The notes beneath the pieces are model-generated. The model saw nothing but the letters and a program-made list of their open reading frames with translations. It had not been told where the DNA came from and searched no databases. From a virus, in IMG/VR virus record IMGVR_UViG_3300000385_000030, positions 1 to 20,964 of that record: DNA of 20,964 nucleotides, one strand, 5' to 3'. This document shows positions 681 through 18,685 of this stretch, piece by piece. Each line of letters opens with the position of its first letter. Within the stretch, counting starts at the first letter, position 1. The position numbers were made by a program, and so were the translations under genes.

Positions 681-765
681 AAATATTAGAAGTAACCAAA
701 CCTAAAGAGATAGGAATACATCGTAGTGCTGAAGATTTTGCTACAATCGACTTAAGTAAAAGCAG
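660..765 (+). repeat. 106-bp direct repeat, copy 2
   Basis: This is the second copy of the repeat at 1-106. It carries the 3' end of the 220-aa gene and the 5' end of the 144-aa gene. The offset between copies is 659 bp, about one gene length. This fits a tandem gene duplication, or recombination that swapped the gene body while keeping the flanks. Confidence 0.95.
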
Positions 766-2085: not shown

Positions 2086-2101
2086 GATACTAGAAAAAGC
2101 A

Positions 2102-2803: not shown

Positions 2804-2828
2804 TATATACATATATAGGTAAAAGAAA

Positions 2829-3131: not shown

Positions 3132-3141
3132 TATTGTTTTT

Positions 3142-3149
3142 GATAAATA
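3142..3149 (+). promoter_or_regulatory. Candidate T4-type late promoter box
   Basis: GATAAATA lies in the 41-base gap before the gene at 3173, 23 bases upstream of its ATG. The T4 late consensus is TATAAATA and cyanophage late boxes are often NATAAATA. In this AT-rich DNA a single 8-mer is weak evidence, but the position in a true gap and the distance to the ATG fit. Confidence 0.45.
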
Positions 3150-3172
3150 TTACTAAAGTAAGGATTTAAATT

Positions 3173-3679
3173 ATGAAAATTAGCGATTTATTTGAAAACG
3201 CAGAATATGAAGATTTTGCATACGATGAAATGGTAGTTCCAGACGATATGGAAGAGCCAGATGTAGACTTTGACGATAACGAAGAGCCTAATAGTAACCC
3301 AGACAAAGATGATGTCCCTCATATCTTAATGCAACTTAAAAAAGCAGTCGATGTTGAAGGGAATTACCCTATAAAATTTAAAGATGGTAGTGAAAGCAAA
3401 TTTCCAATGGGAGACATAGTTGCTTTTATTGAAATGTACATGGATGCTAAGCCTGAATTAAAAGACAAGATGCAAACATTGGGTGCTGAAAGCAAAGAAA
3501 ATTTTGAAAAAATTGTTAAATTTTCAACATCAAAATTAGATGAAACTAAAAAAGACGCTTGTTATCATAAGGTAAAATCACGTTACAAAGTATGGCCCAG
3601 TGCTTACGCTTCTGGTGCTTTAGTACAATGCAGAAAGAAGGGTGCTAAAAACTGGGGTAACAAGAGTAAGAAAAAATGA
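3173..3679 (+). CDS. Acidic protein with C-terminal KVKSRYKVWPSAYASG module
   Basis: This 168-aa protein opens MKISDLFENAE, a looser version of the targeting-like peptides (LFE|N). Residues of about 12-45 are extremely acidic. The middle holds a helical region, and the end is basic with ACYHKVKSRYKVWPS, AYASGALVQCRKKG and NWGNKSKKK. That C-terminal module is one I associate with virion or packaged proteins of T4-like marine phages. Its function is not known to me. A late-type box precedes it, and its last bases overlap the next ATG (ATGA). The charge layout, acidic head and basic tail, would suit a head-core protein. Confidence 0.5.
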   Translation: MKISDLFENAEYEDFAYDEMVVPDDMEEPDVDFDDNEEPNSNPDKDDVPHILMQLKKAVDVEGNYPIKFKDGSESKFPMGDIVAFIEMYMDAKPELKDKMQTLGAESKENFEKIVKFSTSKLDETKKDACYHKVKSRYKVWPSAYASGALVQCRKKGAKNWGNKSKKK

Positions 3680-4212
3680 GAGCACAAGAATTTATCACAG
3701 AAACTTGTTGGGACGGGTACGAGCGAGTTCCCGGTACTAAAAAATATGCGCCAGGAAGTTGCAGAAGAGTATCTGAAGATGAGGGTGAAAGTTGTCCAGC
3801 GCCAACACAAGATTTGGAACTTAATACAAAAAACAGAGACAGTGCTATCAAGGCTGATCATATCAAATACGGTCCACTAAATGTTGATGAACCAGGCGAT
3901 TATTGGCAAGAACTAGCAGATCACTGGGATACTACAGTTAAAGCCGCAAAAAAATCTTTATGCGGTAATTGTGTAGCCTTTGATATTTCTCCCAGAATGT
4001 TAGAATGTATGCCGGGAAAAATTAGTGATGATGACGGGCATTTAGGTTATTGCTGGATGCATCATTTTAAATGTCATAGTGCGCGTACTTGTCGAACTTG
4101 GGCCAAAGGCGGACCCATCAAAGAAGATGATGTTAGTTTAGATTGGCAAAGCAGAAATCCAATCGAAGAAGGATTTAATCCTGAACGTAAATTTTTTATT
4201 CAGGCAACATAA
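3676..4212 (+). CDS. Cys-rich protein with capsid-targeting-like N-terminus
   Basis: This 178-aa protein opens MRAQEFITE with an ITE cleavage-like site, directly followed by a CWDGYERVPG...SC module (C11, C29). A second cysteine cluster is C96, C99, C111, C126, C133 and C139, in the order CGNCVAF, LEC, GYCWMHHFKC and RTCRTW. The CxxC...C...C-x2-W pattern recalls high-potential iron-sulfur proteins, though spacing is only approximate, and a zinc site is an equally open choice. Translation is coupled to the upstream gene by ATGA. I infer that it is packaged in the head. The metal site is speculative. Confidence 0.5.
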   Translation: MRAQEFITETCWDGYERVPGTKKYAPGSCRRVSEDEGESCPAPTQDLELNTKNRDSAIKADHIKYGPLNVDEPGDYWQELADHWDTTVKAAKKSLCGNCVAFDISPRMLECMPGKISDDDGHLGYCWMHHFKCHSARTCRTWAKGGPIKEDDVSLDWQSRNPIEEGFNPERKFFIQAT

Positions 4213-4222
4213 AGGAATAGTA

Positions 4223-4651
4223 ATGAGAATTCAAGAGATAGTAGAAGGAACACGGTGCTGGAAAGGTTACGAAAAGAAAGGCATGAAAACTATGTTTGGA
4301 AAACGTGTACCTAACTGTGTTAAAAAAGAAAGCGCACAAGAAAGCAGTGAAGAAGAATTAGACGAAAACCTACGTGACTGGTTCGGCAAAGGCAAGAAAG
4401 GTGGCGCCGGCGGCGGAGGCTGGGACGCCTACAACAGCAAAGGTGAGCGCATTGGTAAATGTGGCGACACCAAAGGCAGTGCTAAGCCCAAGTGTTTAAG
4501 CAAAAGCAAGGCAGCTAGTCTTCGCAATGCTGATAAAAATAATGATGGCAAAAAAGACGGTAAAGCAGGTATTGCTCGTGCTGTAAAGCGTAAGCGTAAA
4601 AAAGACCCTAACAAAAATCGTAGGGGCAAGGCAAAAAACGTTAAAAATTAA
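4223..4651 (+). CDS. Basic protein with CWKGY module
   Basis: This 142-aa protein opens MRIQEIVEG, where IVE|G fits the prohead protease site. Immediately after comes RCWKGYEKKGMKTMFGKRVP ending in NC, a Cys-pair module related to the CWDGY one in the gene before. A glycine-rich linker follows, then a WDAYNSKGERIGKCGD stretch with more cysteines. A DKNNDGKKDG loop looks like a calcium loop but could be chance. The tail is strongly basic (KRKRKKDPNKNRR). I associate this C-terminal type with small T4-like marine phage proteins of unknown role. GGAATAG precedes the ATG. Confidence 0.5.
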   Translation: MRIQEIVEGTRCWKGYEKKGMKTMFGKRVPNCVKKESAQESSEEELDENLRDWFGKGKKGGAGGGGWDAYNSKGERIGKCGDTKGSAKPKCLSKSKAASLRNADKNNDGKKDGKAGIARAVKRKRKKDPNKNRRGKAKNVKN

Positions 4652-4654
4652 ATT

Positions 4655-4843
4655 ATGCGAGTAGCAGAAGTAGTAAAGCCATACAAAGTATACATAGCTA
4701 GAGTGTTTGTTAAAATGCCTACTTATACTGGTAATATGGATGTAACTGTTACTGCACAAAATTTGTTTCAAGCCAGACAGTTAATGAAAAAACAATATGG
4801 CGTGACTGACAATCTTATTGGTTCGTTAAGAGAAATGAAATAA
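4655..4843 (+). CDS. Small hypothetical protein (MRVAEVVKP)
   Basis: This 62-aa protein opens MRVAEVVKP, close to the MKILEVTKP opening of the first two genes, so a second sub-type of the shared N-terminus exists. The rest alternates strands and ends in a helix (AQNLFQARQLMKKQYG), a compact alpha-beta layout seen in many small phage proteins. It starts three bases after the previous stop and is the last gene before the structured gap. No function is recognised. Confidence 0.45.
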   Translation: MRVAEVVKPYKVYIARVFVKMPTYTGNMDVTVTAQNLFQARQLMKKQYGVTDNLIGSLREMK

Positions 4844-4850
4844 GAATTTT

Positions 4851-4916
4851 ACCCTAGGACCGTTAGGGTTACTGCGCGGCTTCTGCGCTACTTTAGGATT
4901 CGCTACCCTTAAAGTA
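4851..4916 (+). other. GC-rich structured intergenic element
   Basis: The 105-base gap between genes holds three inverted repeats: ACCCTA (4851-4856) with TAGGGT (4864-4869), GCGC (4874-4877) with GCGC (4885-4888), and TACTTTA (4889-4895) with TAAAGTA (4910-4916). AGGGT (4865-4869) could instead pair with ACCCT (4905-4909), giving competing folds or a pseudoknot. Of the 60 bases 4851-4910, 33 are G or C, well above the surrounding DNA. There is no T-run, so it is not a plain intrinsic terminator. A small RNA, an RNA processing site or a leader for the next gene are options. Confidence 0.5.
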
Positions 4917-4948
4917 AAAGTGAGCACTAATTAATATATGGATCCAAA

Positions 4949-5434
4949 ATGAAAGCAGATGAATTTGCGCCCAAAGTAGATTACGAAGACCTTACTCAAA
5001 GGTTGCCCTCTCTGCAAAAAAGAAATTACAGCGACTGGATCCAAGGCAAACTAAAAAGTAAACTTGAAGAAGAAGTTGATCCTGTGATACAAGATGAAGT
5101 TTCTAAGTTTGCTTCTTGGGCATGCAAACGCATGAGTATAAAAAATCCTCCAAGAGTTATATTAAGTTTAGATACAGATAAAGCACAATCAAATCCTGCA
5201 ACAGGGCAATTTGTGTTAGATGACGATAAAATTTGGGTTTACGCTAACAATAGAAATTTAGTTGACATCTTAAGAACCGTTTTTCACGAATTAGTTCATT
5301 ATCGTCAACATGAATTGGGTATGATTGACCCCGGCGATAGTTATCCAGGTAGCCCAATTGAGGCTATGGCAGACATGCTTTCTGGAAAATATATCAAGAT
5401 TTACGGCAAGAAAAATCCTCACATTTTCCAATAA
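4949..5434 (+). CDS. Zinc metallopeptidase-like protein
   Basis: This 161-aa protein contains FHELVHYRQHELG with the HExxH zinc motif (H113, E114, H117) and a downstream GSPIEAMADML helix whose E138 can serve as third ligand, a gluzincin-like arrangement. A strand PRVILSLD and a DDDKIWVYANN edge strand precede the helix as in minimal metalloproteases. No signal peptide or membrane segment is seen, so it would act in the cytoplasm or inside the virion. The opening MKADEFAPK is a loose match to the targeting-like peptides. Substrate unknown. It could be a head-associated protease or an injected effector. Confidence 0.65.
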   Translation: MKADEFAPKVDYEDLTQRLPSLQKRNYSDWIQGKLKSKLEEEVDPVIQDEVSKFASWACKRMSIKNPPRVILSLDTDKAQSNPATGQFVLDDDKIWVYANNRNLVDILRTVFHELVHYRQHELGMIDPGDSYPGSPIEAMADMLSGKYIKIYGKKNPHIFQ

Positions 5435-5726: not shown

Positions 5727-5980
5727 GCAGAACTTTTAACAACGAAGGAAAAATTAAACTAACGCAATTGATTAATGAAGGCATGTCAGTAATGCATGAG
5801 ATTGATTCTTTAAACGAAGGATTAAATGATACTGTTAAAGCAATTGCAGAAGAATTAGAAATCAAACCCAGTGTTTTGAAAAAAGCAATTAGAGTTGCAC
5901 ATAAATCAAAATTATCTGAAACAAACCAAGAAAATGAAGAACTGAATACTATTTTGGAGACTGTAGGTAAAACTCATTAA
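5723..5980 (+). CDS. dsbA: DsbA-like dsDNA-binding protein (late transcription)
   Basis: This 85-aa protein has the size and helix order of T4 DsbA, a dsDNA-binding protein that supports late promoter recognition (not the disulfide oxidoreductase of the same name). The stretch DTVKAIAEELEIKPSVLKKA followed by IRVAHKSK aligns by eye with the T4 region that ends RLLALYHKDN. The C-terminus is acidic, as in T4. It sits between the YdcH-like gene and DNA polymerase, with overlaps on both sides. The assignment is from memory of the T4 sequence and is not verified by search. Confidence 0.65.
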   Translation: MSRTFNNEGKIKLTQLINEGMSVMHEIDSLNEGLNDTVKAIAEELEIKPSVLKKAIRVAHKSKLSETNQENEELNTILETVGKTH

Positions 5981-8694
5981 TGTCTTACGTTGATGCTATT
6001 TACAACCGAGACAAAGATCGGATTTTTGTAGTAGAACGTTCAACGGACGGGATTCGCCATTACCAGGAATATCCTGCAACATATACATTTTACTATGATG
6101 ATCCTAAAGGAAAACATCGTAGTATTTTTGGCGACCCCGTCTCTAGGTTTTCTACTAAAAAAAGATCGGAATATGAAAAAGAAAAAAGAATACACAGTAA
6201 CAAAAACTTGTTTGAAAGTGATATCCCTGTAGTATTCAGGTGCTTGAGTGAAAATTATTTAAATGCAGAACCTCCTAAACTGCACACAGCGTTTTTTGAT
6301 ATTGAAGTTGATTTTGATGCTGAAAGAGGATTTGCTCCTACTAATGATCCATTTAGCCCGGTTACAGCAATCGCATTATACTTAGATTGGTTAGATAAAC
6401 TAATATGCTTAGCTATTCCTCCTAAGCACATGAGCGATGAGACTGCACAAGAACTAATTTCCGAGTTTCCAAATACTTTTTTATTTAGAAATGAAGTTGA
6501 AATGTTCGAAACATTTTTTGAACTGATTGACGATGCAGATGTATTAACTGGCTGGAACTCAGAAGGCTTTGATATTCCGTATCTTGTAAATCGCGTAACA
6601 CGAATTATGAGTAAAGATGATACTCGTAAGTTTTGTTTGATGGGAGAAATGCCCAAAATGAGAACTTACGAACGATTTGGCAAAGAAGAACAAACTTTTG
6701 ACTTAGTTGGAAGAATTCATATGGATTATCTTCAACTATACAAAAAGTATAATTATGAATCTAGGCACAGCTATTCTCTTGATGCCATTTCAGAAATGGA
6801 GTTAGGTGATGTAAAAACTCCATATGAAGGAACATTAGATCAATTATATAATAAAGACTTCAAAGAGTTTATTAGATATAACAGACAAGACACTATGCTG
6901 GTTGCTAGGTTACACGAAAAACTAAAGTTTTTAGATTTAGCTAATGCAATAGCACATGAAAACACTGTACTAATTCCAACTGCTATGGGTTCGGTAGCTA
7001 TGATTGAAATGGCTATTATGAACGAGGCGCATGAACGCGGGGTAGTTGTTCCAGATAAAAAACGCAAAAGTTCAGACGAAGACGCTTCGCCGGCAGCCGG
7101 AGCATATGTAGCATATCCAAAGAAAGGAATTCATGAATGGATAGGCGCCGTCGATATTAACTCACTATATCCTTCTACGATCAGGGCACTTAATATGGCT
7201 CCTGAAACTATTGTGGGACAAGTTCGTCAAACACTAACTGAACGTTACATGCAAGAAAAAAGCACATCTCTAACAAAACAAAAACGTAAAAAGAAAAACG
7301 GTGATGATGCCGACGCAGTAACTGGTTCAGTGCTATGGGAAAACTTATTTGGTTCGCTTGAATACACTGCGATTATGAATCAAGAAAAAGGAACTATGCT
7401 GACTATCGATTATACAGATGGCAGAACAGAAGAAATGTCAGCCGCAGAAATTTGGAAAATGATTTTTGATAGTCACAAGCCTTACATTCTTTCGGCAAAT
7501 GGAACAATCTTTACTTATGAAAAAGAAGGCGTGATTCCTGGATTGTTGTCGCGTTGGTACACAGAACGACAATCCATCCAAAAACAAGCACGAGATGCAT
7601 ATGGAACTGACAAATTTGAATATTACGATAAGCGTCAGTTAGTTCGTAAAATTTTGCTTAACTCAGCATATGGCGCATTGTTAAATGAACATTGTAGATT
7701 TTACGATAAGCGTTTAGGACAATCTGTTACACTGACTGGCAGACAAATTACTAAACACATGATGGCTGCTGTTAATGAAATTATTGTAGGCAAATATGAA
7801 CACGATGGCAGTGCTATTGTATATGGTGATACTGATAGCGCCTACTTTACAGCATATCCTGCTCTTAAAGAGCAAATCGAAAAAGGAGAAATCGACTGGA
7901 ACAAAGAAACCGCTATCGCCTTATATGATAGTATTTCAGAGCAAGCAAATGATACGTTCCCTACATTCATGGAGCAAGCATTTCATTGTCCTAGAAAAAA
8001 TGGAGAGATTATTCAATCGGGCAGAGAGGTAGTTGGCGATAGAAGTTTGTTTATTACTAAAAAGAGATATGCAATTAACATTATCGATAAAGAAGGCAAA
8101 CGCACAGATATAGACAAGCCTGGCGAAATTAAAGCAATGGGACTTGATTTAAAGCGAGCAGATACTCCCAAATATGTGCAAGAATTTTTAATGTCTGTAT
8201 TAGAATTAGTTTTGGCAGGTGGTACAAGGGAAGAAGTTATTGAAAAAATTAAAGATTTCAAAAACGAGTTAAATGCGCAAGATGGTTGGACAAAAGGAAG
8301 CCCTAAAAGTGCAAACAAAATCACGTATTACGAAGAGTTAGAAAAGCGAAGCAAAACAGGAAAAGCCAATATGCCAGGTCATGTAAGAGCCGCAATTAAT
8401 TGGAATTATTTACGTGAACTTAATAACGATCAACATTCGATGAAACTAGTAGATGGGATGAAAGTAGTTGTTTGTAAACTTAAATCAAACCCTCTTAACT
8501 TTACTAGTATCGCTTATCCTACTGACGAATTAAGATTGCCAGATTGGTTTAAACAATTGCCGTTTGACGACAAAGAAATGCAAAAAACACTAGTAGACAA
8601 AAAAATCGAAAACTTGCTTGGTGTTCTTAAGTGGGATTTAGAATCTAATACCAACGTTGACACTACTTTTGATGATTTATTTGTTTTTTCATAA
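5980..8694 (+). CDS. 43: DNA polymerase, family B (gp43-like)
   Basis: This 904-aa replicative polymerase is close to T4 gp43 (898 aa). The proofreading exonuclease is intact: FFDIEVDF (D107, E109), GWNSEGFDIPYL (D198) and YNRQDTMLV (D304). Polymerase motif A is DINSLYPS (D392), motif B is KILLNSAYGA, and motif C is YGDTDS (D617, D619). KKRYA follows in the thumb-side region. The C-terminus is full length. The gene starts in a TAATG overlap with the DsbA-like gene and belongs to the operon from the promoter at 5504. A basic insertion TKQKRKKKNGDDADA lies between motifs A and B. No inteins, frameshifts or split are seen. Confidence 0.98.
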   Translation: MSYVDAIYNRDKDRIFVVERSTDGIRHYQEYPATYTFYYDDPKGKHRSIFGDPVSRFSTKKRSEYEKEKRIHSNKNLFESDIPVVFRCLSENYLNAEPPKLHTAFFDIEVDFDAERGFAPTNDPFSPVTAIALYLDWLDKLICLAIPPKHMSDETAQELISEFPNTFLFRNEVEMFETFFELIDDADVLTGWNSEGFDIPYLVNRVTRIMSKDDTRKFCLMGEMPKMRTYERFGKEEQTFDLVGRIHMDYLQLYKKYNYESRHSYSLDAISEMELGDVKTPYEGTLDQLYNKDFKEFIRYNRQDTMLVARLHEKLKFLDLANAIAHENTVLIPTAMGSVAMIEMAIMNEAHERGVVVPDKKRKSSDEDASPAAGAYVAYPKKGIHEWIGAVDINSLYPSTIRALNMAPETIVGQVRQTLTERYMQEKSTSLTKQKRKKKNGDDADAVTGSVLWENLFGSLEYTAIMNQEKGTMLTIDYTDGRTEEMSAAEIWKMIFDSHKPYILSANGTIFTYEKEGVIPGLLSRWYTERQSIQKQARDAYGTDKFEYYDKRQLVRKILLNSAYGALLNEHCRFYDKRLGQSVTLTGRQITKHMMAAVNEIIVGKYEHDGSAIVYGDTDSAYFTAYPALKEQIEKGEIDWNKETAIALYDSISEQANDTFPTFMEQAFHCPRKNGEIIQSGREVVGDRSLFITKKRYAINIIDKEGKRTDIDKPGEIKAMGLDLKRADTPKYVQEFLMSVLELVLAGGTREEVIEKIKDFKNELNAQDGWTKGSPKSANKITYYEELEKRSKTGKANMPGHVRAAINWNYLRELNNDQHSMKLVDGMKVVVCKLKSNPLNFTSIAYPTDELRLPDWFKQLPFDDKEMQKTLVDKKIENLLGVLKWDLESNTNVDTTFDDLFVFS

Positions 8695-8697
8695 ATA
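8690..8697 (+). promoter_or_regulatory. Candidate late promoter box before the accessory cassette
   Basis: CATAAATA overlaps the stop codon of DNA polymerase and lies 25 bases before the ATG at 8723. It fits the cyanophage-type late box NATAAATA. It would let the cassette at 8723-16022 be expressed late, apart from the polymerase operon. A single 8-mer in AT-rich DNA is modest evidence, but the position is right. Confidence 0.5.
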
Positions 8698-8722
8698 CAA
8701 ATGGATTGGATAAAGGCAGCAA

Positions 8723-10138
8723 ATGACGTATAAATTATACTACGACACTCTTCCTGGAAATAAACTTATGATAAACAGGTTGAGCCGCCATATAAAAGAT
8801 TTTACTTCTGGTCTCTGGAGAGGCACATCTGTAATACAGGACATGATGACGGTTCTAGGAATCGATTATAAATGGACTAACAATGCCAAGGATCCAGAAG
8901 CCATAGTAGTCATTGAAGTGGAAAGTCAACCTCCTGAAATTTTACATAAAGTTATTAATATGGCTAGCAATACATATAAAAAATGTATTGTAGCATGCAC
9001 GACAGAACAACCGTGTATGGAAACAATAGAGGCACTTCCCAGTTTACAAAAGTTACATCCCAACGTTCTTATAACTTTTGGAGGTAACCCTGAACTTAAT
9101 TTTAAATCAAGTAATATGGTTTTTTATCCTTATTATCTGCTAAAGCCTTTTATTTTTGACATCTCAGTTAAGTTGCACAATCATTTAAACTGCAATGGAT
9201 TAACTTCATCAAAGCCTTATATCTTTAATCATTTATCTAGAATGTGGGCAAGAGAAAAATATCATACTCACTATACGATTATGAATCATTTTGAGCGAAA
9301 ATATGATAAAGATCGTGGATATGGGGCAATGCTATCATATAGGCCTATTAACTTTCTTGGCGATGCGGGAGATAGGCACCAAAGGGCCGTTGAAGGTTTA
9401 AAATATCTAGCTATTGAGAATGATAAAAGAGGAGATGATCCATTAACAAGAGGGCTGTACAAAGAACTTTATCCCACCAAAGACTATATAAACAAAGCGG
9501 ACCCAAAACACCCAGATCATTATAAGTGGTTGAAATTAGATAATGATCCGATGTATGATAGCGAAGGCAAAATGCTTGATGTAGGGATGCGGGACCTTGC
9601 ACACCCTATAGGAGTTTATTCAAGAAGTCATATCGCACTAGTAACTGAAATTGAGTGCGGTGAATGGGATAGCACTTATTTGGCAAAAGGTCTTGGATTT
9701 AGTCATGAAAATCCTAACCCATTAACTATAAAAGAAAAAAGCAAATCTACCCCTACAACGGTTTTTAATAGTTTCATATCGGAAAAAACTGTTCAGCCTA
9801 TTTTAAACAAGCAAATTTTTATTGTTGGGAATACCGACTTGATAAATGGTAGTTATAATACAGATTTTTTAAAACGTTGTTTGGGATTTGAGTTATTTGA
9901 AGAAGTATTTGATTACCAAGATATAGAAAACGAAAACAAGTTTTTAACGACTGCTAAGGTTATAGAACAATTAAACGACTTTAAAGAAGAAGTTATTTTT
10001 GATAACGCTAGAGTTCTGGGAGAAAAACTGCATTATAACAGAGATTTAATGGCAAACCCAAATAGTGAGCTAAGACAAAAATTAAAAAAATGGTTTGTTG
10101 AAGATTTATTAGATAAGTTTTTAGAAATGGACTCGTAG
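8723..10138 (+). CDS. Putative glycosyltransferase-like protein, copy 1
   Basis: This 471-aa protein is a full-length paralog of the next gene. Shared blocks include KLYYDTLPGNKL at the N-terminus, IFNHLSRMW with KYHTHYTI near residues 168-188, and GLGFSHENPNP near 325. The most informative part is FISEKTVQPILNKQIFIVGN at about residues 349-368, followed by LGFELFEEVFDY. This SEKT..P......F...G....GF..F pattern is typical of a group of phage and bacterial glycosyltransferase-like proteins distantly related to fucosyltransferase/exostosin folds. No signal peptide or membrane segment is seen. Donor and acceptor (DNA, virion protein, host glycan or small molecule) cannot be told. It is the first gene behind the late-type box at 8690. 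Confidence 0.5.
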   Translation: MTYKLYYDTLPGNKLMINRLSRHIKDFTSGLWRGTSVIQDMMTVLGIDYKWTNNAKDPEAIVVIEVESQPPEILHKVINMASNTYKKCIVACTTEQPCMETIEALPSLQKLHPNVLITFGGNPELNFKSSNMVFYPYYLLKPFIFDISVKLHNHLNCNGLTSSKPYIFNHLSRMWAREKYHTHYTIMNHFERKYDKDRGYGAMLSYRPINFLGDAGDRHQRAVEGLKYLAIENDKRGDDPLTRGLYKELYPTKDYINKADPKHPDHYKWLKLDNDPMYDSEGKMLDVGMRDLAHPIGVYSRSHIALVTEIECGEWDSTYLAKGLGFSHENPNPLTIKEKSKSTPTTVFNSFISEKTVQPILNKQIFIVGNTDLINGSYNTDFLKRCLGFELFEEVFDYQDIENENKFLTTAKVIEQLNDFKEEVIFDNARVLGEKLHYNRDLMANPNSELRQKLKKWFVEDLLDKFLEMDS

Positions 10139-10146
10139 TTTCTAAA

Positions 10147-11556
10147 ATGTACAAATTATACTACGACACGGTGCCCGGAAATAAGTTGCTTTTTAATGAT
10201 CTTAATAGCAAGATTGGTAATTATTCTTCGGGACTTTGGGGTAGAACTGGAGTAATACACGATATGATGTCTATCTTAGGCATCAATTATAAATGGACCA
10301 ATGACATTAAAGACCCAAGTGTTATTCCTATCATAGAAGTAGATAGTCAGCAAGCAAAAGCATTTCATAATATTGTAGAAATAGCTAGTAAAAAATTTAA
10401 AAAATCTATTGTAGTTTCCACGACAGAAGCCCCCACAGTTGAAACGATAAATTTATTACCAAAATTAAAATACTATTTTCCTAATGTGCTATTAGTATTT
10501 TTAGGAAATCCAAAGTTAAATTTTCATTCAAGCAACATAGTTTTCTATCCATTTTTTTTATTAAGCCCTTTTGTTTTTAAAATGTCAGTAGAAACACATT
10601 GTTACGAAAATTGTAATTATTTAACATCAAAAAAAGGACATATCTTTAATCATTTGTCTAGGATGTGGTCACAAGACAAATATCACACACACTATACAAT
10701 ACAAAAATATTTTAAAAACAGACATCATCCAGAAAAACAACCTGGCTGTATTCTTTCTTACAGACCAATAAACTATACAGAGATCGAGGATAGAAAAAAA
10801 GCTGACCTAGAATCTCTTACACATGTAATAAGTAAAAACAATCAGCGCATCGAAGAAGAAAAAACAAAACGTTATGAAAAACTTTATCCTACAGAAGATT
10901 ATCTTGCATGTGCAGATGTTAATAATACCAAATGTTTTCCTTTGATGCAATTAGAAGATGATCCAATGTATGATACTCAAGGAAATGCGATTTCTTTAGT
11001 AGGAATGATGAAGTTGAAACATCCGAATATAATTTATACAGAAAGTCACATTTCTTTAATAACTGAAAATGGGTGTTGTTCGTGGGATTCTCGATATTTA
11101 GCAGAGGGACTTGGGTTTAGTCATGAGAACCCTAACCCAGAAACAGTATGTATCCACAATAGAGTACCCAGAACTAAAACCTTTAATCACATTATTTCCG
11201 AAAAAACCGTTCAGCCTATCTTAAATGGACATATTTTTATCGTAGGCAACGTTGATATGAGCAACGGTAAATATCATACTAATTTTCTTAAAAAGATTTT
11301 AGGATTCCAATTATTTGAAGAAGTTTTCGATTACAGATCGTTGGAAAATGATAGCAGGCACTTGTTTACCTATAATGTAATAAATCAATTGAATGATTTC
11401 AGAGAAGAAGTCATTTTTGATAATTCTAAAATTTTAATAGAAAAAATTCAACACAATAAAGATTTAATGATAAATCCAAATGGCGAACTAAGAATAAAAT
11501 TAAAAAAATGGTTCATTCAAGATATACTAAATAAGTTTTTAAAACTTGATCCTTAA
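10147..11556 (+). CDS. Putative glycosyltransferase-like protein, copy 2
   Basis: This 469-aa tandem paralog starts eight bases after copy 1 and aligns over its whole length. The signature IISEKTVQPILNGHIFIVGN at about residues 347-366 is kept, as are GLGFSHENPNP and LGFQLFEEVFDY. The middle (residues about 195-290) differs most, where an acceptor site could lie. Both copies keep the same core motifs, so both are probably active, perhaps on different acceptors. The start has no strong ribosome-binding site, which suggests re-initiation from copy 1. It ends in a TAATG overlap with the oxygenase gene. Confidence 0.5.
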   Translation: MYKLYYDTVPGNKLLFNDLNSKIGNYSSGLWGRTGVIHDMMSILGINYKWTNDIKDPSVIPIIEVDSQQAKAFHNIVEIASKKFKKSIVVSTTEAPTVETINLLPKLKYYFPNVLLVFLGNPKLNFHSSNIVFYPFFLLSPFVFKMSVETHCYENCNYLTSKKGHIFNHLSRMWSQDKYHTHYTIQKYFKNRHHPEKQPGCILSYRPINYTEIEDRKKADLESLTHVISKNNQRIEEEKTKRYEKLYPTEDYLACADVNNTKCFPLMQLEDDPMYDTQGNAISLVGMMKLKHPNIIYTESHISLITENGCCSWDSRYLAEGLGFSHENPNPETVCIHNRVPRTKTFNHIISEKTVQPILNGHIFIVGNVDMSNGKYHTNFLKKILGFQLFEEVFDYRSLENDSRHLFTYNVINQLNDFREEVIFDNSKILIEKIQHNKDLMINPNGELRIKLKKWFIQDILNKFLKLDP

Positions 11557-12668
11557 TGAGGCATGCAATGAACCAATATTTACAAAAGAACTTTAACAAC
11601 TCTACTTTAGACTATGATCTTAAAAAATATAACTGGCCCAGTTTGATTCTTGAAACCATTCAAAAGAAGTATCCCAACGTAGAATCTTTAGAACACATAC
11701 ATTTATTTTTAGATCGGGAACAAATCTCAGATGCAACAAAACTAGTTTCAGATAGTTTTTTAACTGAGCACATGAGCAAACTTATCGATGATTTCGCACA
11801 AGAATACATCTCTCCTTTAATCGGGGGATCCAGATATTTAGTAAAAAGACAACCTACACTAAATCTAGTAGTACCAAACCAAAGCAGGCTAGGAAGAAGA
11901 CTTCCATTTCATCAAGGAATATTTTATGACAATGGAAGAGGGCAAGGAACTATTTGGATGCCCCTAACAAAATGCTACGAGTCAAATTCTATGTGGGTAG
12001 TAGATTTACAAGAAAGTAGAGATTTGACTAAAAAAGTTATTGACAACAAATGGTCTGTTGAAGAGTTTGAAACAGAATGTTTAAAATATGCATGGCCAGT
12101 AACATTAGAGCCGGGGCAAGCGCATCTGTTTGCTCAAGAACATATTCATGGTAATGTCGAAAATACCACTGACATTACTAGGCTTGCAATCGATTGGCAT
12201 GTTTTGATAGAAGGCGAAGAGTATCATAGAAGGTATCCAGGAGCATTCTTTAGGCTTCCAGGAGATTATGTTGATACACCTCAGCCAGATAATAATAAAA
12301 CTTATATCGGTTATTTATCTCATAATAGTCACTTCGATGCTCACATAGGAAAACATGCACAACGTTGTACGATAGAGCACTATATTGGGCAGCAACAAAT
12401 TAAACTAAGCGGTTACCAATTTGAAAATGAATACTTAACGCATTTGCCTATTTTTGAGCACTTACTAGAACAGAATATTGATTGTATAGTAGTTTTTAGC
12501 ATGTATTCTATTACTGATGAGTTATTAAAAAAAGCAATTGACTTAGGAAAAGAAATACACTTTGCTAATGAATACATGATTATGCGAACAGAAAAAGATT
12601 TAGAAAAGGCACTTACATATAAAAACTTTGCTATATCTAAAAAAGAAAAATTGCCATTTGAGGAGTAA
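11556..12668 (+). CDS. PhyH/StrG-like Fe(II)/2-oxoglutarate enzyme with HxG motif
   Basis: This 370-aa protein has a PhyH-type double-stranded beta-helix core: PFHQGIFYDNG (H119), GTIWMPLTKC, LEPGQAHLF, then HIHGN (H196/H198) and TRLAIDWHVL (R209, expected to bind 2-oxoglutarate). In ordinary family members the first metal motif is HxD; here it is H119-Q-G121. Loss of the carboxylate is the hallmark of Fe/2OG halogenases such as SyrB2 (HxA) and the HxG group, where chloride takes the free site. A relation to StrG of streptomycin clusters is also plausible. Residues of about 245-370 form an extra C-terminal part without a recognised motif. An alternative ATG at 11568 exists. Oxygenase, halogenase and inactive protein are all still possible. 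Confidence 0.6.
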   Translation: MRHAMNQYLQKNFNNSTLDYDLKKYNWPSLILETIQKKYPNVESLEHIHLFLDREQISDATKLVSDSFLTEHMSKLIDDFAQEYISPLIGGSRYLVKRQPTLNLVVPNQSRLGRRLPFHQGIFYDNGRGQGTIWMPLTKCYESNSMWVVDLQESRDLTKKVIDNKWSVEEFETECLKYAWPVTLEPGQAHLFAQEHIHGNVENTTDITRLAIDWHVLIEGEEYHRRYPGAFFRLPGDYVDTPQPDNNKTYIGYLSHNSHFDAHIGKHAQRCTIEHYIGQQQIKLSGYQFENEYLTHLPIFEHLLEQNIDCIVVFSMYSITDELLKKAIDLGKEIHFANEYMIMRTEKDLEKALTYKNFAISKKEKLPFEE

Positions 12669-12669
12669 T

Positions 12670-13545
12670 GTGAATACGCTGAGAGGGGCAAGACCCATAC
12701 CCGACAAAGAAATTAAAAATTATTATAATAACTTTTCTTTTAATGAAGTATCTTTAGATCATTATAAAGATGCATGGGTATCTTGGATTAACAATACACA
12801 ATTAAAAAGTATTCAGGGTCTAGAAGCGTTTGGTTATTTCGATTATATTGCTGGCACTAGTCATGCCTTTGATCACTTTGTAATAAAAAATTCTAAAAAG
12901 ACTATCCTTACCCTCAGAGGAGACTTTCAGTACCATCATTGTATTTCCAAATTTAATAAATTTAAGTACATTGATTATTCGAATGTAAATGATTTAGAAA
13001 AAGCAGTGTCTAAAGACCAAAGTTATGCTATGATTATCAGCGTTCCCTTTAGCGATTTGGGTTGTGTTCACCCAGATTTCGATACTATTTTAAAGTTTTG
13101 TAGTAAAATGAACATATCGGTTTTATTAGATTTAGCTTATTGGGGAATTAGTAAAAATATTCACATTGATTTAAATAAGTATCCTTGTGTTGATGAAGTA
13201 GCATTTAGTCTAAGCAAATCTTTTTATACGTTAGAAAATCACAGAGTTGGAATTAGATTTACAAAACAATATGTTGACGATGGTATTAGCATGCTAAACG
13301 AAGTAAAAATGTATAACAAATACAGTATGAGCCTAGGCGTTTACTATATGAATCAGTTTGATCCAGATTGGAACTGGAACAAATACAAAACCAAATACAA
13401 CGAACTTTGTGTGCAAGAAAATCTAAAACAAACCGACACTGTTATTTTTGGATTAGGAGATAAAGAAAGACATTCTCACTTTAACAGAGGAATACCTGAT
13501 AACTTTAGAGTTTGTATTAGTGAAGCACTGGGAGATGAAGTATGA
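12670..13545 (+). CDS. Compact PLP aminotransferase-like protein, copy 1
   Basis: I place the start at the GTG at 12670, two bases after the upstream stop and behind GAGGAG, giving 291 aa. An in-frame ATG at 12628 would overlap the previous gene. The protein has fold-type-I aminotransferase landmarks: GTSHAFDHF (phosphate-side loop), SVPFSDLG in the position of the NPxNPTG turn, LLDLAYWG (Asp and Tyr to PLP), FSLSKSF with the Schiff-base lysine, and HRVGIRF. FRVCIS at the end fits the C-terminal substrate arginine. It is 60-100 residues shorter than usual for class I/II enzymes, the lost part being mostly the small domain. The donor and acceptor are unknown. Confidence 0.6.
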   Translation: MNTLRGARPIPDKEIKNYYNNFSFNEVSLDHYKDAWVSWINNTQLKSIQGLEAFGYFDYIAGTSHAFDHFVIKNSKKTILTLRGDFQYHHCISKFNKFKYIDYSNVNDLEKAVSKDQSYAMIISVPFSDLGCVHPDFDTILKFCSKMNISVLLDLAYWGISKNIHIDLNKYPCVDEVAFSLSKSFYTLENHRVGIRFTKQYVDDGISMLNEVKMYNKYSMSLGVYYMNQFDPDWNWNKYKTKYNELCVQENLKQTDTVIFGLGDKERHSHFNRGIPDNFRVCISEALGDEV

Positions 13546-14495
13546 CAACTCATACACAAATTCCTGATAATAAATCAAAAGTATACGGAGGTGCCTGGAG
13601 TGTTCATGATGCAGATGTTGTCAAAAAACGAGATGAATTGCTAAGAGAATTTTCTAATTTTGACTTGGGTAATAGAAAGTTAACACAAAAATTAAAAGAA
13701 GATTTTTTTGCTACTTTTAAAGATTGGATGTTCAACGACTTTGATTTTTCGGGAACCGATCTTTATAATAATTGCTGTGTTACAAATGGAACTACTGAGA
13801 GTTTTGCACAATTTTATTTAAGATATGGCAATAAAAAAAGATTAAGACTAGCAAAAGGAGAATATTTTTATCAGCAAATGATGAAAAATCTTTGGTATCA
13901 AGATAACTTTGCTTGGTTAGATGAAGACAAAATTCGAGAAAACGATTTCGTTTTGATTAGTGTTCCTTTTTCTGATACCGGCTCAGTACCCGATCAGTTA
14001 GAAGAAATGCTGTGTGAATGCGACAAACTTCAAGTTCCCGTTATGTTAGATATGGCATTTATAAATCTAACAAATCAAGAAGCACTTAACACAACAATTA
14101 ATTTAGAACACGAATGCATAGAATATATTGTAAGTTCTTTAAGTAAGGCACTGCCGATAGAAAATTATAGAGTAGGAATAAGACTTCAAAAACAAAAATT
14201 TGAAGATCAATTATATGTAATCAACGAAGACAATTATAATTATTTGAATTTTTGTAGCGTTTTTATTGGAACAGAATTAATGAAATCTTTTCCTGCAAGA
14301 ACACTATTTGACAAATATAGACCAAAACAACTTGAACTATGCAAAGAACTAAACTTAGTTCCTAGTCCTTGTTATATATTTGGAATAGATATCAACAATC
14401 AATATCCAGAATATTCTAGGGGAAATAAAACAAATAGATTATGTTTTTCTAGAGTATGGGACAATAGAGCAAAAAAAGAAGGATTAAAAACATGA
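13542..14495 (+). CDS. Compact PLP aminotransferase-like protein, copy 2
   Basis: This 317-aa protein is a divergent paralog of the previous one, starting in an ATGA overlap. It has CCVTNGTTESFAQFY (PLP phosphate loop), SVPFSDTGSVPDQ, VMLDMAFINL (Asp), SSLSKALPIENYRVGIR with the lysine and following arginine, and NRLCFSRVW near the end. Both copies replace the usual Asn of the NPTG turn by Ser in VPFSD. They may form a heterodimer, since fold-type-I active sites lie at dimer interfaces, or act on successive substrates. The next gene overlaps by four bases. Confidence 0.6.
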   Translation: MTTHTQIPDNKSKVYGGAWSVHDADVVKKRDELLREFSNFDLGNRKLTQKLKEDFFATFKDWMFNDFDFSGTDLYNNCCVTNGTTESFAQFYLRYGNKKRLRLAKGEYFYQQMMKNLWYQDNFAWLDEDKIRENDFVLISVPFSDTGSVPDQLEEMLCECDKLQVPVMLDMAFINLTNQEALNTTINLEHECIEYIVSSLSKALPIENYRVGIRLQKQKFEDQLYVINEDNYNYLNFCSVFIGTELMKSFPARTLFDKYRPKQLELCKELNLVPSPCYIFGIDINNQYPEYSRGNKTNRLCFSRVWDNRAKKEGLKT

Positions 14496-15544
14496 TAGTA
14501 AACACTCATAACGATTGGGATCCATTGGAAGAAATTATTGTTGGGCATGCTCATCATGCCAGAGTAACGCTTGACAGGTCTCAGCATAGTTTTAGTTATG
14601 CTGATAAAACATGGGACGAAATCAAAGACATGGAAGGCCCTCTTCCCGACTGGGTTATTGAAGAAGCCAACGAAGACATTCAAGGATTGGTAGATGTGCT
14701 TGAATCTATGAACATTAAAGTCCATAGACCAAAAATCATTGATTGGGATAACGAGTTTAGCACACTAGACTGGAAAAGCAAAGGTTGGTATAGTTGGTGC
14801 CCTAGAGATTTGATTTTGCCTCTTGGCGATATGCTTATTGAAACACCAAGTCCCACACGTTCAAGGTATTTTGAAACTAGGCTTTATGATGATATTTTAT
14901 ATGAAGCGTTTGAAGATGATGCACTATGGTTTAGTGCCCCCAAACCCAGACTATTAGATGACTTATATGACATCGAAAGTGACGTACGGGGTAGAAGCAC
15001 TTTATTAGACAAAGAAATTTGTTTTGATGCGCCAAATATTGTTCGCGTTGGTAGAGATTTACTTTATCAAGTTAGTAATAGCGGAAACATGAAAGGATTT
15101 AGATGGCTTAAACGTCTTTTAGAACCAATGGGCTATAGACTGCATTACAGTGAACTGTACAGTTATGCACACTTTGACAGCACGATAATTCCTTTAAGAC
15201 CTGGATTAGTATTATTAAATGGTAGTCGAGTTACGCCAGACAATTGCCCTGAAATATTTAAAAACTGGGACAAAATTTACTTTGATGATTGTATCGCTCA
15301 AGGATGTAAAGTTCCCGGCTATCATTCGCCATGTAGTCCATACATAGGATTAAACATTCTTAGTGTAGATGAAAACACTATTATTTGTGATAGTGCTCAA
15401 GAACCTTTAATGCGAGAACTAGAAAAATATAATATAACTTCTGTACCAGTTAAGTTTAGGCATGCCATGACACTTGCTGGGGGAATACATTGTACTACAC
15501 TAGATTTGCGTAGAAGAGGAACATTGGAGAGTTATTGTGATTAA
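14492..15544 (+). CDS. Arginine amidinotransferase (AGAT/StrB1-like)
   Basis: This 350-aa enzyme would move the amidino group of arginine to an amine, giving a guanidino compound and ornithine. Family landmarks are VNTHNDWDPLEEIIVGHA at the start, CPRDLILPLGDMLIETP with SRYFETRLY, YAHFDSTIIPLRPG (H227, D229), and AGGIHCTTLDLRRRG, whose C334 is the expected nucleophile. All are intact, so it is likely active. It resembles glycine and inosamine-phosphate amidinotransferases, and the sequence alone does not tell the acceptor. It overlaps the aminotransferase upstream (ATGA) and the oxygenase downstream (8 bases), so the three probably share a pathway: an amine made by transamination is a natural acceptor. 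Confidence 0.85.
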   Translation: MIVNTHNDWDPLEEIIVGHAHHARVTLDRSQHSFSYADKTWDEIKDMEGPLPDWVIEEANEDIQGLVDVLESMNIKVHRPKIIDWDNEFSTLDWKSKGWYSWCPRDLILPLGDMLIETPSPTRSRYFETRLYDDILYEAFEDDALWFSAPKPRLLDDLYDIESDVRGRSTLLDKEICFDAPNIVRVGRDLLYQVSNSGNMKGFRWLKRLLEPMGYRLHYSELYSYAHFDSTIIPLRPGLVLLNGSRVTPDNCPEIFKNWDKIYFDDCIAQGCKVPGYHSPCSPYIGLNILSVDENTIICDSAQEPLMRELEKYNITSVPVKFRHAMTLAGGIHCTTLDLRRRGTLESYCD

Positions 15545-16022
15545 CTTTGGACATATAGATTTTAAAATTCTCAAATCTGATTTAGATGAAATCAATTTTA
15601 GTGAATGTCAAACTTGCTATCGTCAATATGACGCATTAGAAAAATACTACAATGAACATAATAGCAGTGTTTGGCAAATGTTTGAAGAATCACCAAGTTA
15701 TATACATGATTTGGCTGATAAGGTACCCCAAAACTTTAAAAATCATGTAGTAAGCGTCATAAGAATTGATCCAGGAAACACTATACCAAATCATTTAGAT
15801 AAGCATTACAAACTCAAAGAAGAATTTGGTGATGGTGACATAAACAGATTTCTTATTTTTTTAGAAGATTGGAAAAAAGGACATTATTTTGAAGTTCAAG
15901 ATCAGCCTTATGTTAAATGGAAACAAGGAGACTGGGTTAGTTTTGGTCCAAATGATTGGCATTTAGCGGGGAACATGGGCGATCAACCCCTTTACTGTGC
16001 TCAAGTAACAACATTAAAATAA
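15537..16022 (+). CDS. Fe(II)/2OG oxygenase, Asp/Asn-hydroxylase-like
   Basis: This 161-aa protein starts at a GTG at 15537, behind GGAG at 15526-15529, inside the end of the amidinotransferase gene. Residues 83-90 read TIPNHLDK with the HxD motif (H86, D88). INRFLIFLEDW and YFEVQDQPYVKWKQGDWVSF form the core strands, and NDWHLAGN carries the second histidine (H142). The layout fits a small single-domain oxygenase like the aspartyl/asparaginyl hydroxylase group, or an Fe-binding cupin. The metal triad is complete, unlike the HxG protein upstream. It may finish the product of the preceding enzymes. Confidence 0.6.
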   Translation: MINFGHIDFKILKSDLDEINFSECQTCYRQYDALEKYYNEHNSSVWQMFEESPSYIHDLADKVPQNFKNHVVSVIRIDPGNTIPNHLDKHYKLKEEFGDGDINRFLIFLEDWKKGHYFEVQDQPYVKWKQGDWVSFGPNDWHLAGNMGDQPLYCAQVTTLK

Positions 16023-16114: not shown

Positions 16115-16846
16115 ATGAAAGACAATTTACAAGACTTAATTCAACACACTATGGGTTTAGGAGTAATCGAACTCGTTAAGATAGTTGGCACTGATCAAGA
16201 AACTGAAATTTCAGCAATTGCAGAGGATAAATCTGTTGTTGTAAATGGTAAGTTTAAAACTCCGGTTGCAGAGTTTATTGGTACATTTGGTATGCCCAAC
16301 TTGTCTAAGTTAAAAACAATTTTGTCATTTGACGATTATGATGAAAATGCAATCATTAATGTTACTAGAACAAACAAAGATGGTGAAGATGTCCCAACAG
16401 CAATTCACTTTGAAACAAGTGCGGGAGATTTTGTTAACGACTATCGGTTGATGTCAAAAAGTATTATCGAAGACAAAGTTCGTAATGTTACTTTTAAAGG
16501 CACTGCTTGGAACGTTGAGTTTGAACCTACGGTTGCTGGTATTATGCGTCTTAAAAAGCAAGCATCAGCAAATGCAGAAGAACTTAACTTTACTACAAAA
16601 ACTGACAATGGAGATTTGAAAATCTTTTTTGGTGATCCATCAACTCATTCGGGAAACTTTGTTTTTCATCCTGGTGTAACAGGAACATTATCAAAAAATT
16701 GGATGTGGCCGGTAAAAGTCTTTTTATCTATTATGGATTTGCCCGGTGACAAAACAATTAAAATTTCTGATCAAGGTGCTACTGAAATTACAGTAGACAG
16801 TGGTCTAGCAGTTTATCAATTCTTGTTGCCTGCACAAGCAAAATGA
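16115..16846 (+). CDS. 45: Sliding clamp, gp45-like
   Basis: This 243-aa protein fits the size of T4 gp45 (228 aa). The layout of strand pairs and loops is clamp-like: an N-terminal helix (LQDLIQHTM), VVVNGKFKTPVAEFIGTFG, LKTILSFDDYD, then a second half with WNVEFEPTVAGIMRLKKQ and TGDNG-like beta turns, and LAVYQFLLPAQAK at the end. The clamp trimer encircles DNA and tethers DNA polymerase gp43, which is encoded upstream; in T4 it also supports late transcription. The assignment rests on overall pattern and context, not on a signature motif. Confidence 0.7.
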   Translation: MKDNLQDLIQHTMGLGVIELVKIVGTDQETEISAIAEDKSVVVNGKFKTPVAEFIGTFGMPNLSKLKTILSFDDYDENAIINVTRTNKDGEDVPTAIHFETSAGDFVNDYRLMSKSIIEDKVRNVTFKGTAWNVEFEPTVAGIMRLKKQASANAEELNFTTKTDNGDLKIFFGDPSTHSGNFVFHPGVTGTLSKNWMWPVKVFLSIMDLPGDKTIKISDQGATEITVDSGLAVYQFLLPAQAK

Positions 16847-17175
16847 TCAGAATAACAAGCCATACTAGACCCGTTGTTTGGCAAGTTGAAAACAAACATC
16901 TATTACCCAATATTTCAGGAACAGTAAGATGGAACGGCTCTACAGCAGAGTTTGAAGTTTGTGATAATTCAGGTAAATGGCATAGAATAGATCCTACTGT
17001 AAGACTTGAATATAATGAAGACACTGCCGAAGTTATAGATTGGGCAAGAAAAAAGATGTTAGAAGAAAAACAATTAAATGAACTAATAGAAAAATATCCT
17101 TCTGTACGAGAAGCCAAACGAAACTTAGACTTAACATTAGAGTTAGTAAAAGATGACACAAGCGAATCTAACTGA
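16843..17175 (+). CDS. Unknown 110-aa protein in the clamp operon
   Basis: This 110-aa protein starts in an ATGA overlap with the clamp gene. The first 60 residues look like a small beta domain (PNISGTVRWNGSTAEFEVCD, then WHRIDPTVRLEY). The rest is helical and charged (WARKKMLEEKQLNELIEKYP). I do not recognise it. The tight position between clamp and transglycosylase suggests co-expression with both. Its last 23 bases overlap the next gene in another frame. Confidence 0.45.
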   Translation: MIRITSHTRPVVWQVENKHLLPNISGTVRWNGSTAEFEVCDNSGKWHRIDPTVRLEYNEDTAEVIDWARKKMLEEKQLNELIEKYPSVREAKRNLDLTLELVKDDTSESN

Positions 17176-18685
17176 TCAACACAATGATGATTGGGCATTG
17201 TTTTTGCCAGCAGTATCTAGTTTTTTTATTTCAGGATTAGGCAGACAACGCGAAGGTCAAGAATATTTTGATCAATCAAGAATTCCTCAAGGGTTCGGCG
17301 GTAGTGTAGAAAAGTTAAACTTTCTTAACAGCAGTGAGGGTTTGTACAACTATAAGTGGGGTTTGTACTCGGCAGGTCACGCTAACTTAGACACTACTAC
17401 AGATAATCCAAGCGAATCTATTATACGCAAGCGTGAAGCCGGAACTTTTATGTTAGGTGATTCTGGTGGGTTTCAAATTATGAAAGGGCAATGGCCCGCT
17501 GACTGGAAAGACCCCAATTGTCCCAAAGCCAAAAAGCAACGAGAACTTGTTCTTAGATGGATGGATGAGTATATGGATTATGGCATGTGCTTAGATGTTC
17601 CATCGCAAACCGTAAGAAATCAACATTTGTATGACAAACATGGCATTAGCACAATTGACGATGCTAGAAGCGCAACACATATCAACAACGAATATTTTAT
17701 TCAAAATCGCAATGGCAACTGTAAATTTTTAAATGTTCTTCAAGGACTAACTCACACTCAAAGTGATGAGTGGTATGAAGAAATGAAAAGATATTGTGAC
17801 CCAAATATTTATCCAGAAAATCATTTTAATGGCTGGGCATTTGGTGGTCAAAATAAAATTGATATTCATTTAATGTTGCGTAGACTAGTTAATATTATTC
17901 ATGATGGATTGTTAGAGCCAGGCAAACATGACTTAGTTCATTGTTTGGGCACTAGCATTTTAGAATACGCGGTGTTGTTTACTGATATTCAACGAGCAAT
18001 TAGAAAATATCATAATCCAAATTTAAAAATTACTTTTGATTGCGCATCGCCTTTCTTTTCGGCGGCAAAAGGTTTAGCATACTTTAACACACAAATCGAA
18101 CACGATAAAAAGTGGACTTATAGTATGGAAAAAACTGCTGAAAATAAAGACTACGCCAATGATACTAGAAAATTCAGTGATGCGGTTTTGCAAGATGGTA
18201 TTCACGAAATGTTTACAGACAGCCCGATAACAGAAAATATGGTTCTTAAAGACTTGTGTTATCGAGGGCATGGTTTTATTGGTCAACATGGCAAAGAAAC
18301 AAAAACAAGCTGGGACACACTTTCTTATACTCTTTTACAAGCACACAATGTTTATCAACACATTTGGTCAGTACAAGAAGCAAATCGCAGATACGAACAA
18401 GGTGTCAAACCAAAAATGATTATTCATCCTTTTGATGATATTAGTTTTGGTTCTATTGTTGACGAAATCTTTTCGTTAAATGACAGAGAAAAAAGTTTGG
18501 CACTGATAGACCATCATAGCGCATTTTGGACACAAATGAAAGCAGGTCAAGGATATAGCGGCAAAAAATCTGTAAATTCTCTAACTATGTTTGAACAGTT
18601 ATTTGAAACTTCTGGGGAAGAAACAAATGAGCCAGACGATGAGTTTGAGGATAGCGATGATGCTATGAGGGAGATTATAGAATGA
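17153..18685 (+). CDS. tRNA-guanine transglycosylase/DpdA-like enzyme
   Basis: This 510-aa protein belongs to the TGT superfamily, which swaps guanine for a 7-deazaguanine base. LGDSGGFQIMKG gives the conserved D103, GWAFGGQ corresponds to the GGLAVGE-type glycine loop, HCLGTS to the MGVGTP strand, and TFDCASPFFSAAKG to the segment with the catalytic nucleophile, here D296. The CxCxxC zinc motif of bacterial TGT is not visible, and it is longer than bacterial TGT (about 375 aa). Both points fit the phage DpdA group, which puts preQ0-type bases into DNA. A tRNA substrate remains possible. The acidic C-terminus (EPDDEFEDSDD) is low complexity. It shares an operon with the clamp and the next oxygenase. 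Confidence 0.75.
   Translation: MTQANLTDQHNDDWALFLPAVSSFFISGLGRQREGQEYFDQSRIPQGFGGSVEKLNFLNSSEGLYNYKWGLYSAGHANLDTTTDNPSESIIRKREAGTFMLGDSGGFQIMKGQWPADWKDPNCPKAKKQRELVLRWMDEYMDYGMCLDVPSQTVRNQHLYDKHGISTIDDARSATHINNEYFIQNRNGNCKFLNVLQGLTHTQSDEWYEEMKRYCDPNIYPENHFNGWAFGGQNKIDIHLMLRRLVNIIHDGLLEPGKHDLVHCLGTSILEYAVLFTDIQRAIRKYHNPNLKITFDCASPFFSAAKGLAYFNTQIEHDKKWTYSMEKTAENKDYANDTRKFSDAVLQDGIHEMFTDSPITENMVLKDLCYRGHGFIGQHGKETKTSWDTLSYTLLQAHNVYQHIWSVQEANRRYEQGVKPKMIIHPFDDISFGSIVDEIFSLNDREKSLALIDHHSAFWTQMKAGQGYSGKKSVNSLTMFEQLFETSGEETNEPDDEFEDSDDAMREIIE

Follow-up and report, generated by a model that had tools for sequence, protein, structure and literature searches.

The stretch of DNA analysed here (the window) is a 20,964-bp virus contig, positions 1 to 20,964 of IMG/VR record IMGVR_UViG_3300000385_000030. 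It carries seven intact open reading frames (ORFs) lying head to tail on the plus strand at 8723-16022, between the genes of a DNA polymerase (PolB) and a sliding clamp. On balance, we consider this cassette to be a mobile, modular viral pathway to a small molecule with a guanidine group, a modified sugar being the most likely product. Established directly were the gene set and its linkage among phages, together with the catalytic residues and the fold of its pyridoxal phosphate (PLP) enzymes. They define a viral biosynthetic module that recurs and that the papers searched do not describe; it brings to phage biology an antibiotic-type amidinotransferase, a PLP family that is nearly virus-only and a halogenase-type iron site.

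The seven ORFs encode, in order, 471, 469, 370, 291, 317, 350 and 161 amino acids (aa), with intergenic gaps of 8, -1, 1, -4, -4 and -8 bp; the first begins 28 bp after PolB and the last ends 92 bp before the clamp. A twin contig, IMGVR_3300000547_000182, has the same seven-gene order at 99.7-100% aa identity, and the cassette is therefore no assembly accident. The ORF coordinates and the twin contig together confirm the tight packing, with some overlapping ends, that had been described in a first-pass annotation made from the sequence alone. The start of AT1 is most likely GTG at 12670, after GAGGAG, rather than TTG at 12628 (305-aa ORF). The features are as follows.

5980..8694, plus strand: PolB, upstream context; nearest relatives in jumbo phages Phosso and Atu_ph07
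8723..10138, plus strand: GTA, 471 aa, family unassigned, with a C-terminal EKT block; putatively glycosyltransferase-like
10147..11556, plus strand: GTB, paralogue of GTA (54% identity)
11556..12668, plus strand: SpoCho, PhyH-like Fe/2-oxoglutarate (2OG) domain, TIGR04324-like, fused to a TIGR04323-like (LIC12192-type) domain
11910..11918, plus strand: codons of the HxG iron site, H119-Q120-G121; Asp at the Gly position in 8/8 bacterial homologues
12670..13545, plus strand: AT1, 291-aa fold-type-I PLP enzyme with SLSK lysine; type of AT-AMT-2OG-SDR cassettes
13542..14495, plus strand: AT2, 317-aa PLP enzyme; type of SpoCho-2OG-AT-AMT cassettes
14492..15544, plus strand: AMT, L-arginine:inosamine-phosphate amidinotransferase (StrB)-like; D179, H227, C334
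15537..16022, plus strand: 2OG2, 161-aa double-stranded beta-helix 2OG oxygenase-like protein; H86-x-D88...H142
16115..16846, plus strand: sliding clamp, downstream context; phrog_12062 (no named function), so called after the first-pass annotation and a Phosso-like gene order

Linkage of the cassette genes across viruses

A scan of IMG/VR with a profile of the transaminases (AT) gave 206 relatives, 80 of which were kept; the SpoCho profile gave 86, and 59 loci with adequate flank were counted. Where at least 2.5 kb lay downstream of an AT1-type gene, AMT was present within 2.5 kb in 57/57 loci and a 2OG gene in 55/57. Where 5 kb was available, a short-chain dehydrogenase/reductase (SDR) of the nucleotide-sugar dehydratase/epimerase type was found in 44 of the 45 loci, and 30 of 84 AT loci had a B12 radical-SAM gene. 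Within 4.5 kb of SpoCho lay AMT (49/59), AT (41/59) and 2OG (39/59), arranged in 17 different orders, among them SXTM, GGSXTM, XTSM, STMG, SGM and SM. For SpoCho and AMT the distance matrices correlated at 0.75, above every permutation.

The loci also differ in their surroundings. Some belong to the polB region of jumbo-like phages (the window, L008, L087 and L217), and others lie between the tail-sheath stabiliser and the head-tail adaptor and tail sheath; in T4-like contigs the cassette follows nrdA-nrdB-phoH. It adjoins an endolysin gene in L159, and in L205 it lies beside thyX and primase genes. Independent scattering of the genes among related phages, which the first-pass annotation had named as the test of its idea that they form one set, was not what we saw: the linkage holds in 57/57 and 49/59 loci, and the idea stands.

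These counts bear on another explanation, in which independent auxiliary genes of creatine-like or host-nitrogen metabolism have gathered in a hypervariable insertion site. Variable metabolic islands are known in the marine phages Mosig and S-SCSM2R, and the creatine-pathway gene GAMT was reported to be enriched in ocean viruses (PMC11360552). However, linkage that persists with permuted order at different insertion sites, an AMT that is StrB-like and not of the glycine type, and the absence of a methyltransferase from the window cassette in family scans make this explanation highly improbable.

Two cassette types exist. Type I consists of SpoCho-2OG-AT2-AMT and EKT-block genes, and type II of AT1-AMT-2OG-2OG-SDR, often with the B12 radical-SAM gene. 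Among ATs in SpoCho-bearing loci, 58 were of AT2 type and one of AT1 type, and 94 of 95 AT1-type genes had no SpoCho nearby; because the AT2-type loci were retrieved through SpoCho, only the directions from SpoCho to AT type and from AT1 to SpoCho are informative. The window holds a merged cassette with both AT types, SpoCho, AMT and one 2OG gene, and its AT1 and AT2 are not the result of a recent local duplication. AT1 patterns, run against 84,980 genomes of bacteria and archaea, detected one relative, on a 3.7-kb contig of a Synechococcus lacustris draft genome. Its arrangement, AT-AMT-2OG-2OG-SDR, is a fragment of a type II cassette; this contig is probably phage DNA and possibly a hint of the host.

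The gene set occurs in hundreds of virus contigs from metagenomes but was not found in annotated phage genomes; tblastn with SpoCho and GTA found no match in 50,697 phage records, and the open-access literature on the 'sporadic carbohydrate cluster' and on the cassette genes gave nothing matching. The earlier statement that no phage system with this set was described thus stands for the collections and papers covered, although a different module has been published for Campylobacter phages CP220 and CPt10, whose radical-SAM and amidinotransferase modules were described as interchangeable (PMC2853527). Because such modules have been published, the cassette should be regarded as a variant of phage-borne biosynthetic cassettes and not as a new category. 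The Campylobacter module shares with it a phage location, a related amidinotransferase (25-29% identity), glycosyltransferase-like genes and, in WX1, an aminotransferase; it differs by several radical-SAM genes at its core, and no relative of SpoCho, AT1 or AT2 type was found there. Synechococcus phage S-SCSM2R has an island with adjoining 2OG (28%) and amidinotransferase (34%) genes and annotated glycosyltransferases, but without AT1, AT2 or SpoCho, and with radical SAM and an AHBA-synthase-like aminotransferase instead. Pelagibacter phage Mosig (L102, 1-12649) carries a metabolic island beside its tail-fibre genes, a different set of similar flavour: a carbamoyltransferase, MoaA-like proteins, ArnB-like and other aminotransferases, TauD and a desaturase.

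Amidinotransferase and transaminases

The best PDB match of AMT in phmmer was the inosamine-phosphate amidinotransferase StrB (1bwd, E 1.8e-83, 284 bits, full length), followed by glycine amidinotransferase (AGAT) and SxtG at about 203-205 bits. The alignment agrees with this order: like StrB, AMT has no insertion in the 240s such as AGAT has, and it has Ala before the catalytic His, a small residue as in StrB, where AGAT has Met302. Residues D179, H227 and C334 align with StrB D179, H227 and C332 and with AGAT H303 and C407; of these, StrB C332 and AGAT H303 and C407, with which C334 and H227 of AMT align, are catalytic. Across the viral family at large, D or E occupies position 179, the His is present in 71/71 sequences and the Cys in 69/71 (the other two are gaps). 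By sequence, AMT is a StrB-type amidinotransferase, nearer to StrB than to AGAT, and the first-pass call of an amidinotransferase was correct. Its nearest relative in annotated phage records has 34% identity.

Cyanobacterial StrB-like genes on L133, L134 and L136 have 34-44% identity to AMT. Two of them have, as read from the sequence, aminomutase-like and ATP-grasp-like neighbours, and the gene of L136 lies within what we read as a NeuB/CMP-sialate-synthetase-like cluster, which we count for a sugar link.

AT1 and AT2 were also named correctly as aminotransferase-like paralogues: both match Aminotran_1_2 (PF00155) above the Pfam cut-off, at about 29% identity to each other, and the PLP Lys, Asp and Arg are kept in 64/64 ATs. 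They are fold-type-I PLP enzymes with a Schiff-base Lys. For AT1 the fold is also confidently predicted by a structural model (predicted local distance difference test, pLDDT, 89), which matches class I/II PLP enzymes at Z ~22 with a root-mean-square deviation of 3.1-3.7 over ~280 residues. Neither protein is of the DegT type, given the Pfam match of both and the class I/II fold matches of AT1.

The transaminases raise the possibility of a different product. In this alternative, a guanidino amino acid or cyclic guanidine (enduracididine-, guanitoxin- or capreomycidine-like) would be formed from arginine-derived or AMT-made substrates and would serve as a diffusible effector or peptide modification. 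The best PDB sequence match of the AT profile is the O2/PLP-dependent desaturase Plu4 (7n79, E 4e-4), the AT1 model matches the enduracididine synthase GntC among many class I/II folds, and pairing of PLP and 2OG enzymes is typical of guanidino amino-acid chemistry. But dozens of functions are tied at Z ~22, the nearest relative of AMT is StrB, and the SpoCho and SDR partners indicate carbohydrate, so that we hold an amino-acid product to be unlikely, if still worth attention.

SpoCho, the oxygenase and the proposed pathway

SpoCho scores 65.8 bits (E 4.3e-18) against TIGR04324 (SpoChoClust_2), below the curated cut-off of 150 bits, and is best described as a relative and not a member of this family. 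Against TIGR04323 (SpoChoClust_1) it scores 14.7 bits (E 0.022), the curated cut-off being 55 bits. Profiles of bacterial genes gave a clearer division: TIGR04324-type genes match aa 8-214 (E 3.5e-23) and eight TIGR04323-like genes match aa 250-352 (E 1.2e-4), the latter part being a probable remote homologue. A TIGR04323-like short gene directly adjoins the TIGR04324 gene in 7/7 cyanobacterial genomes fetched for TIGR04324, and SpoCho would most simply be a fusion of this bacterial pair. The cyanobacterial loci contain SDRs and in most cases transketolase halves and HAD-like and kinase-like genes (names read from the sequence). TIGR04324 was absent from the four reference phages examined.

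The iron site of SpoCho has changed from its bacterial form. In the alignment, H119-x-G121 is found in 62/62 viral proteins and H-x-D in 8/8 bacterial TIGR04324-type proteins; 62/62 viral proteins retain the distal H198 and R209, and the bacterial N-x-R has become D213-x-H215. The HxG reading of the first-pass annotation is therefore a property of the whole viral family. Fe/2OG halogenases, SyrB2 and BesD among them, have as their hallmark a missing carboxylate with both His present (PMC2767507, PMC13244439), and the SpoCho site, with two His, Gly in place of Asp and a presumed 2OG-binding Arg, fits the pattern of Gly or Ala replacing Asp or Glu. However, SpoCho belongs to another family, and an engineered swap of the Asp-to-Gly type left prolyl hydroxylase a dead enzyme, which means that the substitution alone is insufficient (PMC2767507). 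For this reason halogenation by SpoCho is a possibility only, and the conserved D213-x-H215 could be a substitute ligand set. In 2OG2, the second Fe/2OG enzyme named earlier, H86-x-D88...H142 is invariant, with H/D/H in 73/73 relatives.

GTA and GTB had been called glycosyltransferase-like paralogues. The paralogy stood, but the glycosyltransferase label found no family support, as neither protein matches a Pfam, PHROG, NCBIfam or PADLOC family. Their EKT block, SEKT...IFIVGN...GFELFEEVFD, reads SEKTVQPILNKQIFIVGN...GFELFEEVFD in GTA, and in profile comparison it matches proteins in other cassette copies (probability 72%, E 3e-5; probability 62%, E 8e-5). No relatives of GTA among viruses were found beyond the twin contig. 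The AlphaFold2 model of GTA, from a two-sequence alignment, has pLDDT 35, and profiles of the related cassette families A7 and A8 gave nothing convincing in PDB. Weak matches to Zincin, FixP_N, Cas1 and similar families in the scans were dismissed as chance.

For the pathway we infer the order of reactions, the sugar nature of the product, its transfer and its acceptor. An AT would add an amine to a keto intermediate, and AMT would transfer the amidino group from host arginine to that amine, giving a guanidine and ornithine. The HxD oxygenase 2OG2 would then hydroxylate, and the HxG PhyH-like enzyme SpoCho would perform a second C-H functionalisation, possibly chlorination. Finally, the EKT-block proteins may move the product onto an acceptor: a virion protein, a host surface glycan or DNA. 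The carbohydrate reading draws on the TIGR04323/TIGR04324-like fusion, on the SDRs that accompany the gene pair in cyanobacteria, and on the nucleotide-sugar SDR in related cassettes. If a guanidino sugar is indeed made, it would be a positively charged decoration, which could mask virion or DNA, change the host surface or block superinfection. The most specific version, a mobile phage pathway to a guanidinylated, chlorinated sugar-like compound made through a virus-specific HxG halogenase-LIC12192-type fusion and attached to virion, host surface or DNA, seems to us rather improbable. Each cassette enzyme is small and assayable, so the question is directly testable.

The first-pass annotation compared the cassette with the streptidine (streptomycin) pathway, whose proteins include StrB1, StsC/StsA and StrG. 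The comparison holds for the StrB-type AMT, the logic of transamination and amidino transfer, and the carbohydrate context, but not for the pathway as such. The cassette transaminases are Aminotran_1_2 proteins and not DegT/StsC, no inositol dehydrogenase, kinase or phosphatase was seen, and the HxG PhyH-like fusion and the double-stranded beta-helix oxygenase are additions. SpoCho likewise differs from the bacterial sporadic carbohydrate cluster, relatives of whose two proteins it contains as domains, in being fused, in the Asp to Gly and N-x-R to D-x-H changes and in scoring below both cut-offs.

Several observations weigh against a guanidine-bearing sugar. The phages behind many of the loci are related, so that the counts are of non-independent events, and the correlations for AT and AMT (0.54) and for SpoCho and AT (0.59) lie just below the largest permuted value. 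Most sugar aminotransferases are of the DegT type, to which the AT family does not belong, and Plu4 as the best AT match would also suit an amino-acid product. The glycosyltransferase role of GTA and GTB is one that we infer, and the window, a 21-kb fragment, is without a nucleotide-sugar enzyme.

Insertion site and genomic background

PolB is nearest to those of Sinorhizobium phage Phosso (469 kb, 48%) and Agrobacterium phage Atu_ph07 (490 kb, 45%), and for this reason the uncultured source virus is probably a jumbo phage infecting bacteria. In Phosso one small ORF lies between PolB and the clamp, with folE- and queE-like genes following; in L011 and L240 there is one 314-aa ORF at this place, and in L168 none. 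From this closer spacing, the cassette looks like an insertion at the PolB-clamp junction. No meaning of its location in a replication region is supported: in relatives the genes are found at other places, and PolB and clamp are less far apart. Nor is the supposed late-type box ahead of the cassette supported. This box, CATAAATA, lies at 8690 across the stop codon of PolB, and its motif is at chance level, with 53 window sites at no more than one mismatch against 65 expected.

A further alternative is that the cassette decorates a base of the phage DNA. Consistent with such hypermodification are the nearness of polB, of the clamp and of a TGT-like gene whose product shows the motifs DSGGFQ and FDC, the folE- and queE-like genes in the syntenic region of Phosso, and QueC in the AMT-bearing Campylobacter phages. 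Yet other phages carry these genes among their tail genes or behind nrdA/nrdB, and a search for QueC found none in S-SCSM2R, Mosig and Phosso or in three incomplete jumbo contigs of 53-104 kb; we therefore think DNA hypermodification doubtful and continue to favour the modified sugar.

The TGT-like protein (17153-18685; motifs seen by eye), of which jumbo phages of the PA5oct type and others encode homologues, has no Pfam, PADLOC or PDB match; it is possibly a DNA 7-deazaguanine transglycosylase. The Pfam TGT model hit 0/8 records and 14/14 controls, and it also misses the window's protein, which makes it uninformative for such genes. PolB and the TGT-like gene had no match in 15 partial virus contigs, records that are fragments and thus uninformative. 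A third Fe/2OG oxygenase (18682-19224; PF13640, E 2.4e-8) overlaps the TGT-like gene, outside the cassette.

In the twin contig (2763-5478) PolB is split into ORFs of 436 and 454 aa, against a single 904-aa ORF in the window, apparently by a frameshift or sequencing error. The same contig encodes a GMP reductase at 17986-19008 (NF003470, E 5e-144), just 3' of the region covered by the window. A protein with CHASE2 and class III nucleotidyl cyclase domains (PF05226, PF00211) is found near tail genes in jumbo-like virus contigs, for example at 2400-4424 of L021, which also carries a FecR-domain protein; this family (f11) is present in 43 of 84 AT loci. At 18-5434 of the window, about nine consecutive ORFs begin, by eye, with MRAHEFITE, MRAQEFITE, MKADEFAPK, MRIQEIVEG or similar. 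These short start motifs resemble the T4 capsid-targeting peptide, and the proteins may be packed into the capsid and injected. Two adjacent ORFs here, 18-680 and 677-1111, begin with the same 30 residues (MKILEVTKPKEIGIHRSAEDFATIDLSKSS) and differ after that.

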